Part shown: positions 13,030 to 27,624 of the stretch, one piece after another
How positions within the stretch are numbered: the first letter of the stretch is position 1
Layout: every line of letters starts with the position of its first letter
From: Exiguobacterium sp. s124
GTDB lineage: Bacteria > Bacillota > Bacilli > Exiguobacteriales > Exiguobacteriaceae
Length of the DNA stretch: 64,000 nt
Direction: 5' to 3'
Assembly (NCBI RefSeq): GCF_018617485.1
Contig: NZ_JACSKH010000001.1
Location: forward strand, 1,798,001 to 1,862,000
Program-made: the position numbers and the translations under genes
Notes under the pieces: model-generated
Told to the model about the DNA's origin: nothing
The model's database searches: none
What the model saw: the letters and a program-made list of their open reading frames with translations, nothing else

Positions 13030-13296
13030 CACAAAAACGGCTTCTCTCGTCCTATACGCTAAGGACGAAAGAAGCCGTGATCTTCCGCGGTACCACCTTA
13101 GTTCGCCAACAAATTGGCGCACTCAAAATCGAATAACGGTCGATGGACCGAACTTTCCTACTCCATTCAGAAAGTCAGCTCCGAGGCGACTTCCGCGTCC
13201 ATCCCTCGCAACCTTTCACCAAGCGGTCGCGTCTCTAAAAGGAATGAATGATGCGTACTACTCCTCATCAAAGCCATTCATCGTATCTGTTAGATA
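13030..13296 (-). promoter_or_regulatory. T-box riboswitch controlling valS
   Basis: The minus-strand leader carries the hallmark AAGGTGGTACCGCGG at about 13083-13097, followed by a GC-rich terminator stem (CGGCTTCTTTCGTCC pairing with GGACGAGAGAAGCCG) and T-run. Upstream is a stem I-like region with the GGTGAAAGGTTGCGAGG segment. A GTC triplet at 13188-13190, in AAGTCGCCTC, is the likely specifier codon and reads valine, matching the downstream gene. Uncharged tRNA-Val binding would favour the antiterminator. Confidence 0.92.
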
Positions 13297-26893: not shown

Positions 26894-26945
26894 ATTTTAA
26901 TGGAAGCGTCCCAAGAGGGATTCGAACCCCCGACCGACGGCTTAG

Positions 26946-27577
26946 CTTACCACCATGACTTTCGTCACCAACATCGTGTTGTTTGTAGTCTGGACTATAT
27001 CTTCACCGTTTCAGGTGCGACACGTGTAGTCTCTACGGAACCTCACGATAATCATCTGCAAAAAGAATATTTTGCTTTTGATTATTCTTTGGTGTTTTTA
27101 CCCTCAATGAAATAGATTTTTCAAAAAGATTCGGTTCAAAGTAATAACAGGTATCAGTCTGTGGACAATATACACAGTATACATCGATTTCATCTTTGTT
27201 TATAAACCGCGTCTGAACTCCACTCGCGGTACTATAGCTAGAACGAAACCGAACATTTAGAACCCCATTTGTGTTTAGTTCTCTGTACTTAACTTGAATC
27301 CGTTTAAACTGATTGTCTTTGTAAACAACTAAGTCAAACGGCGCATGTTCAGTTGCAGGGAACAAAATCATAAACCCTTTTTGATATAAATCTACTTGAG
27401 CCTTTAAAACACCTAAATCTCCCTTACTTTTTGTGTGATGATACATAAAACATCACTCCTTAAGAGATCGTAAGTTTCCTCGGTATTACCATCAGCATAA
27501 TCTGTTAAGGCTTCACCGATATAGTGTCGTCCACTTTATAGGTTTCTGTTTCCCTATAAAGGCTCCTATTTGTCTTG
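26946..27577 (-). other. Group I intron (632 nt) in tRNA-Arg(UCU)
   Basis: The minus-strand intron follows a U (5' exon ends CUU) and ends in G, as group I splicing requires. Core helices can be drawn: P2 CTTTATAGG/CCTATAAAG (plus-strand 27534-27561), P3 CGACAC/GTGTCG (27529-27524 with 27023-27018), P4 CGGT/ACCG (27518-27515 with 27484-27481), P5 GCC/GGT, P7 GACTA/TAGTC (27031-27027 with 26997-26993) and P8 CACC/GGTG (27017-27004). J8/7 plus P7 reads AAGATATAGTCC, the usual group I signature. P1 would pair GGCCUU with AGGAGCC, with one bulged A. The nuclease gene sits between P4-P6 and P7, so it lies in a peripheral loop and leaves the core whole. Confidence 0.93.
27033..27446 (-). CDS. Intron-encoded PD-(D/E)XK-type homing endonuclease
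   Basis: 137 residues, encoded inside the tRNA intron on the same strand, with AAGGAG nine bases before the ATG. The core reads PFDLVVYKDNQFKRIQVKYR: Asp38, then Gln51-x-Lys53 on the next strand, the D...(E/Q)xK pattern of the restriction-enzyme fold. The known tRNA-intron nuclease I-Ssp6803I (about 150 residues, from a cyanobacterial tRNA-fMet intron) has this fold, so a homing function by cutting intronless tRNA-Arg genes is likely. No LAGLIDADG, GIY-YIG or HNH motif is present. The stop codon ends two bases before intron helix P7. Confidence 0.8.
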   Translation of the reverse strand: MYHHTKSKGDLGVLKAQVDLYQKGFMILFPATEHAPFDLVVYKDNQFKRIQVKYRELNTNGVLNVRFRSSYSTASGVQTRFINKDEIDVYCVYCPQTDTCYYFEPNLFEKSISLRVKTPKNNQKQNILFADDYREVP

Positions 27578-27624
27578 AAGGCCGTTGCTCTATCCTGCTG
27601 AGCTATTGGGACATTGACATGAAA

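Follow-up and report, generated by a model that had tools for sequence, protein, structure and literature searches.

Introduction

Among the group I introns of tRNA genes, one is known to carry a PD-(D/E)XK endonuclease, I-Ssp6803I, the enzyme of the cyanobacterial tRNA-fMet intron; introns of the tRNA anticodon loop are labelled subgroup IC3. The locus described here resembles the Synechocystis tRNA-fMet system in being an anticodon-loop group I intron with a PD-(D/E)XK enzyme of similar predicted fold, but it differs in the tRNA and the phylum concerned, and the two endonucleases share 18–22% identity in structural alignments. Arginine tRNAs are also interrupted by group I introns in Alphaproteobacteria (Agrobacterium, Bartonella BbgpI), although there the anticodon is CCU and the host group is another. 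The closest precedent by anticodon is a set of putative group I introns already published in the tRNA-Arg-TCT of the Beggiatoa relatives Maribeggiatoa and Thiomargarita nelsonii (PMC4853749); these hosts are Gammaproteobacteria, however, the authors state that they did not determine which type the tRNA introns belong to, and the passages on these introns mention no endonuclease. In phages, collaborative homing has been described, in which a free-standing endonuclease cuts at the site of an intron (PMC3984707), and that review places all phage introns known at its time in protein-coding genes.

Here we analyze a window of 64,000 nt (G000:C1:1798001-1862000) from a 2.82-Mb Exiguobacterium genome available as a draft assembly of 15 contigs. 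On sequence grounds, we consider it very probable that the window holds a functional tRNA-Arg(UCU) gene into which a mobile group I intron has been inserted.

Results

A tRNA-Arg(UCU) gene split within its anticodon

Run without introns, ARAGORN called no tRNA anywhere in the window, illustrating how a standard tRNA finder overlooks a split gene of this kind. With its intron option, the program placed a 632-nt intron behind nucleotide 35 of a tRNA-Arg(tct). Once joined, the exons (35 + 39 nt) fold as tRNA-Arg(tct) with the anticodon loop C-U-U|C-U-A-A, the insert lying between U34 and C35 (Table 1). This agrees to the base with the original prediction, made from the letters of the window, which had proposed the same exon lengths, insert and position and had named a tRNA-finder run on the joined exons as a check. 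The exons are perfect and match intact genes of the genus exactly, the 5′ exon recurring with the same sequence in four other split and two intact genes. Two clades of the genus differ by a compensatory change in the anticodon stem, and pairing is kept.

Table 1 Features of the split tRNA-Arg(UCU) gene and its intron, in window coordinates
Feature	Position	Strand	Basis
5′ exon of tRNA-Arg(UCU), 35 nt, last base anticodon U34	27578..27612	minus	ARAGORN with introns
Group I intron, 632 nt, endonuclease gene in P6 loop	26946..27577	minus	ARAGORN, structure alignment, covariance model
Internal guide sequence UAGGAG; GAG with exon CUU forms P1 (U.G at splice site), UAG with CUA of the 3′ exon forms P10	27563..27568	minus	Read from sequence
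P2 hairpin	27534..27561	minus	9 pairs, 420/423 cells paired, two-sided changes in 6 pairs
AAGGAG, ribosome-binding-site-like, 9 nt upstream of ATG	27456..27461	minus	Read from sequence
Gene of a putative PD-(D/E)XK homing endonuclease, starting with ATG, 137 codons, stop just before P7	27033..27446	minus	PF11645 E 1.6e-36
5′ arm of P6-extension stem, in endonuclease codons 12–14	27406..27413	minus	Inverted repeat; 8/8 pairs
3′ arm of P6-extension stem, in endonuclease codons 117–119	27091..27098	minus	Inverted repeat; 8/8 pairs
3′ half of core, P6 3′ strand to final G	26946..27045	minus	Covariance model without genus, 114.2 bits
P7 5′ strand GACUA	27027..27031	minus	Invariant; partner 26993-26997
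AAGAUAUAGUCC, J8/7 and P7 3′ strand (signature cited in the original prediction)	26992..27003	minus	Sequence, pattern, alignment
3′ exon of tRNA-Arg(UCU), 39 nt, first base anticodon C35	26907..26945	minus	ARAGORN with introns

AGA is used at 3.5 per 1000 codons and is present in 18 of the 44 window ORFs of 150 codons or more. The 45 tRNA hits of the assembly fall in 12 stretches, in which the arginine anticodons called by ARAGORN were CCG and ACG only, with no UCU gene beyond the split one, and a pattern for an intact UCU arm found no tRNA in the window genome (G000) or in three congeners assembled into two contigs each (G004, G006 and G009). Since no intact tRNA-Arg(UCU) was found in the draft assembly, AGA decoding probably depends on splicing of the split gene, as had been proposed for the case that it is the sole gene. 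The 45 tRNAs include no tRNA-Pro, so the draft assembly is incomplete for tRNAs and the lack of a second UCU gene is not proven. This incompleteness is what speaks for a dead split gene, with AGA read by another tRNA; against it stand the perfect exons, the compensatory stem change between the clades and the failure of the pattern, which does find an intact UCU gene in the intronless G001, to find one in any of these four genomes, and we regard such a dead gene as extremely improbable.

The insert has the core of a group I intron

All elements from P1 to P10 can be assigned in the window intron. We aligned it with 47 named introns that had been gathered with a window-derived pattern fixing AAGATATAGTCC and GCTAAG (48 introns, 47 distinct rows). 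Over 59 pairs, 2720 of 2769 cells (98.2%) are paired, and two-sided changes occur in 19 of the 59, compared with 2–6 when the partners are slid and with none of 500 shuffles reaching as high a value. P1 is paired in 141/141 cells and P10 in 135/141, and the U34.G pair at the splice site is present in 47/47 rows. Pairing is likewise complete for P3 (282/282), P4 (235/235), P7 (235/235) and P8 (188/188) and reaches 178/188 for P6, the last pair of which is broken in 10/47 rows. P3 and P8 show slight covariation; P4 and P7 are paired and invariant, so that their support is conservation. Because the collecting pattern fixes AAGATATAGTCC and GCTAAG, selection accounts for part of the constancy seen in the P7 3′ strand, in the final G and on the exon side of P10, and the final G and exon CUA, which lie inside the pattern, are tested solely by the window and by the introns of the genus.

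By structure, then, the insert is a group I intron, with the P3, P4, P6, P7 and P8 core present. The site and the complete core given by the original prediction both hold; what it overlooked is an intact homing endonuclease ORF in the P6 loop, which takes up about two thirds of the 632-nt insert.

The generic RNA model was less responsive. Rfam RF00028, which the original prediction had named as the Infernal check, gave no match in the window at its gathering threshold; searched on 851 nt, it scored 19.5 bits (gathering 50) with E 0.019. At E 0.01 over six loci, it matched two gene-less sister introns (32.1 and 31.6 bits) and none of the other four, the window among them. We count this failure as evidence against the group I reading; a tailored model that leaves out the genus does find the intron. 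For this covariance model of the intron 3′ half, we used 25 introns and left out 12 of the 37 that were at hand from other genera; double changes occur in 9 of its 23 pairs (0/500 shuffles). Its match, the sole window hit at E up to 10, has an E of 3.1e-22 (a rough value), and its end coincides with the predicted 3′ splice site (Table 1). The test is not fully independent, as the model introns had been gathered with the window-derived pattern.

Within a sample of the phylum, the covariance model matched 3 of 398 genomes (the window genome, G053 and G687), one of them in another tRNA, and the element is rare in this sample. The match in G687 (L181 1318-1645), a member of another class of the phylum, is a possibly related intron-like insert scoring 59.5 bits; we read the joined loop of its tRNA as CUCAUAA (anticodon CAU), and ARAGORN calls it Leu caa.

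The P6 loop encodes a putative PD-(D/E)XK homing endonuclease

The window protein matches PF11645 (PDDEXK_5) at 125.8 bits against a cut-off of 26.1, as do all seven sequences of the endonuclease alignment. A profile of these seven sequences searched against the PDB finds 2ost (I-Ssp6803I) at E 7.5e-7, where the window protein alone reaches E 0.16. From the same alignment, AlphaFold gave five models with pLDDT from 53 to 81, the best having pLDDT 81.1 and pTM 0.75. With this model, 2ost was the best match both in Foldseek (E 7.4e-9) and in VIA-align (Z 13.8, 131 residues aligned, 2.5 Å; next entry 10.0). D38, Q51 and K53 (window numbering) are invariant in the seven sequences and align to the D and Q-V-K of 2ost, residues that are catalytic in I-Ssp6803I. 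By profile and predicted fold, the window protein is thus a putative PD-(D/E)XK homing endonuclease of the PDDEXK_5 type, and the presence of its intact gene makes the insert a potentially mobile element.

Substitution rates show purifying selection on the endonuclease over the compared branches: dN between the window protein and three relatives is about 0.19–0.20 at a dS of 1.1–2.7, which is near saturation, and two of these relatives differ between themselves by a dN of 0.016 versus a dS of 0.215. No relative of the endonuclease was found in a plasmid collection at E 1e-3.

Part of the coding sequence appears to belong to the RNA structure as well. Two short runs of codons near the ends of the ORF (Table 1) form an 8-bp stem that prolongs the P6 domain. 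At least six of the eight pairs can be formed in 35/52 introns, a count biased upward by the choice of best-pairing anchors, and five introns have no anchor. The arms occupy homologous codons in the seven introns that are gene-bearing or partly deleted. At the third pair, the most variable position of the stem, five of these introns pair (U-A in the window, then A-U, G-C, C-G and A-U) and the other two do not (C/U, U/U). These few cases suggest that, in introns with the gene, codons of the endonuclease double as part of the P6 stem. A comparable stem is kept in many gene-less introns, indicating that the P6 domain can survive when the ORF body is deleted; the stem is absent in the shortest introns (209 and 226 nt).

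Distribution of the intron and its endonuclease

Within the genus, the gene is split in 15 of 19 genomes and intact in four (G001, G002, G008 and G017). Only the window genome has the endonuclease (1/19); the other 14 introns are gene-less and 280–288 nt long. In a sample of the class, an intron-exon pattern matched 25 of 398 genomes and 9 of 145 genera, the genus accounting for 15 genomes and the remaining 379 genomes for 10, and the reversed pattern gave no match in the 398. A match to the endonuclease at E 1e-5 was present in 7 of the 398 class genomes. When the pattern AAGATATAGTCC...GCTAAGNCG was run over a collection of 84,980 species, it picked out 48 stretches, comprising 47 complete split tRNA-Arg(UCU) genes and one cut by the end of its locus. 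Ten stretches are from Exiguobacterium, three from gammaproteobacterial MAGs (one Arenicellales) and 35 from other genera such as Neobacillus, Priestia, Melghirimyces and Kroppenstedtia, whose class, Bacilli, was taken from the genus names (checked for Melghirimyces); the 47 complete named cases accordingly divide into 44 Bacilli and 3 Gammaproteobacteria. ARAGORN labelled several of the split genes Ser(gct), SeC or Glu, labels that we rejected, as 47/47 exon pairs read CTT|CTAAG, that is, UCU. The original prediction knew of no such intron in the tRNA-Arg(UCU) of Bacillales, an impression that the class sample and the named cases overturn.

Among the 47 named introns, 4 are longer than 600 nt. 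The ORF is intact in Bacillus sp. FJAT-14578 and Priestia abyssalis, and that of Paenactinomyces lacks an ATG at the usual place but has an upstream in-frame ATG giving 154 aa. Other copies have decayed: the Pullulanibacillus ORF is frameshifted, and those of Terrilactibacillus and Thermoactinomyces are internally deleted, with larger pieces remaining. Such decay, together with the 14 of 15 genus introns that lack the gene, would fit an intron that splices and is no longer mobile here, its endonuclease being a passenger that is yet to decay; indeed, with the gene in 1 of 19 genomes, mobility within the genus at present is no more than putative. The window ORF is nonetheless intact, has a ribosome-binding-site-like sequence, keeps the residues aligned to the D and Q-x-K of 2ost and evolves under purifying selection over the compared branches, and we consider a mere passenger rather unlikely.

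Several further arrangements were noted. G152 contains, downstream of its split tRNA gene (L075 1350-2000), a second decayed copy of the endonuclease with the intron 3′ half and the tRNA 3′ exon. In both G152 and G053 (L076), a short element resembling an IS200/IS605-type miniature breaks up the endonuclease ORF. In G153, also of the class Bacilli, an intact tRNA-Arg(UCU) is followed by a decayed free-standing ORF of the endonuclease family (L077 1501-1791), a layout as in phages. The window itself also holds a T-box leader at 13058-13280 on the minus strand (139.1 bits).

Gain and loss within the genus

A tree of the flanking DNA (1.4 kb) scatters the four intronless genomes over four places, and the genome nearest to that of the window, G001 (flanks 92.0 and 94.1%), is intronless. 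The core of the window intron differs from the gene-less introns of G012, G013 and G016 by a single mismatch in 204 columns, and the nearest core outside the genus shows 11 mismatches. The P6 loop of the window intron is nevertheless of the endonuclease type, set in a core that is otherwise like that of its gene-less congeners. From this combination we infer a recent acquisition of the gene-bearing loop, which may have come together with the entire intron from an Exiguobacterium outside the sample.

Alternatively, the endonuclease may never have been regained, the ancestor of the genus having had the gene and all other sampled lineages having lost it. The ORF remnants in several other introns demonstrate that losses happen, and the position of G000 and G001 within their clade is weakly supported. 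On the other hand, the gene-less P6 loops of both genus clades have, by eye, a common third hairpin unlike the ORF type, which suggests one old loss, and the window core is separated from its gene-less congeners by that one mismatch. We therefore regard uninterrupted inheritance of the gene as distinctly unlikely and continue with recent acquisition of the gene-bearing loop.

The closest viral relatives found lie near intact tRNA-Arg(UCU) genes

Among 50,697 phage records, 25 matched the endonuclease at E 1e-3, the best being those of Synechococcus phage Sf-FR1 (53%) and Acinetobacter phage Herod (43%), and a scan of IMG/VR with two peptide patterns added three loci (54, 52 and 42%). A tRNA-Arg(UCU) gene lies 67 nt upstream of the ORF in Sf-FR1, 21 nt upstream in Herod and about 16 nt upstream at L158; at L157 it overlaps the 3′ end of the ORF, and at L159 it lies 422 nt upstream, with tRNA-Arg(CCG) and tRNA-Val between. 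At L155, one of these five loci, a tRNA-Val overlaps the ORF end. The anticodon at L158 was read by hand: ARAGORN proposed Pyl(cta), which we set aside, the 7-nt loop CTTCTAA reading as UCU. The five closest viral relatives found are thus all near an intact tRNA-Arg(UCU), four of them within about 70 bases; being akin to each other, they do not represent five independent events. No group I intron was detected at the five loci (L155–L159) at E 0.05. On the IMG/VR contig of L157 (1924-2520), the endonuclease and the whole tRNA-Arg(UCU) sit between the halves of another tRNA-like gene; these outer halves can be joined in many ways, many of which give a tRNA call of shifting identity, and we make no claim about them.

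The Sf-FR1 protein matches 53 records, and from the 40 of these that were listed we picked 11 more distant relatives from different organisms. All 11 have a tRNA within the stretch and its 1-kb flanks, and in none is it Arg(UCU) by ARAGORN (0/11); in Enterococcus phage EFP01 it is Arg(UCG). At these loci (L160–L170, phages and haloviruses), PDDEXK_5-like genes lie near Gly, Asp, Asn, Ser, Ile, Tyr, Ala and other tRNAs, some overlapping or touching the tRNA end, under annotations that vary from Holliday junction resolvase and endonuclease VII to nuclease and hypothetical.

In a midpoint-rooted tree, the Arg(UCU)-associated proteins, phage and intron-borne, form one clade (support 0.991), within which the four intron-borne enzymes form a subclade (support 0.998). 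The pattern fits a free-standing tRNA-specific endonuclease that would have joined an intron at its target.

Discussion

The features of this locus suggest two steps. The precursor would self-splice in a guanosine-initiated reaction, with P1 formed by exon CUU and intron GAG and P10 by intron UAG and exon CUA, which would restore the anticodon UCU, the reader of AGA. The PD-(D/E)XK enzyme of the intron would then cut intronless tRNA-Arg(UCU) genes at the anticodon region, a target suggested by the position of the intron, and repair of the break would copy the intron into the cut gene. The sequences themselves show an intact and conserved ORF, a conserved RNA structure, a site that is occupied or empty among relatives, ORF loss in others and an ORF-bearing P6 loop in a core like that of gene-less congeners.

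The tree and the gene neighbourhoods suggest that the enzyme belongs to a lineage found near tRNA-Arg(UCU) genes in phages, so a possible origin of the mobile intron is the encounter of such a free-standing endonuclease with an intron at a shared target site. The likeness to collaborative homing lies in an endonuclease near its presumed intact target, with an intron in the same kind of gene elsewhere; the difference is that the target here would be a tRNA gene rather than a protein-coding gene, the kind in which that review places all phage introns known at its time (PMC3984707). Our broadest reading, which we hold tentatively and place a little short of an even chance, is that a phage family of free-standing PD-(D/E)XK endonucleases sits next to individual tRNA genes and is specific for them; that the branch tied to tRNA-Arg(UCU) moved into a group I intron located at that anticodon site; that the resulting mobile tRNA intron cycles through Bacilli by gain, gene loss, intron loss and re-invasion, a form of collaborative homing on a tRNA gene; and that, where the intron has the gene, its codons double as part of the P6 stem.

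The kind of element is already known, since tRNA group I introns have been described, including putative ones in the tRNA-Arg-TCT of Beggiatoa relatives (PMC4853749). Searches of open-access papers brought up no tRNA-Arg(UCU) intron described from Bacilli. As far as these searches go, three things appear to be new: the occurrence of the element across Bacilli, its endonuclease-carrying form in tRNA-Arg(UCU), and the existence of phage relatives close to that tRNA.

For the bacteria themselves, reading of AGA would hang on one ribozyme reaction. The states seen comprise the empty site, the gene-less intron, the intron with its gene, the decayed gene and the phage endonuclease near an intact target. 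Together they open the origin of a mobile tRNA intron, and its life cycle, to direct test.
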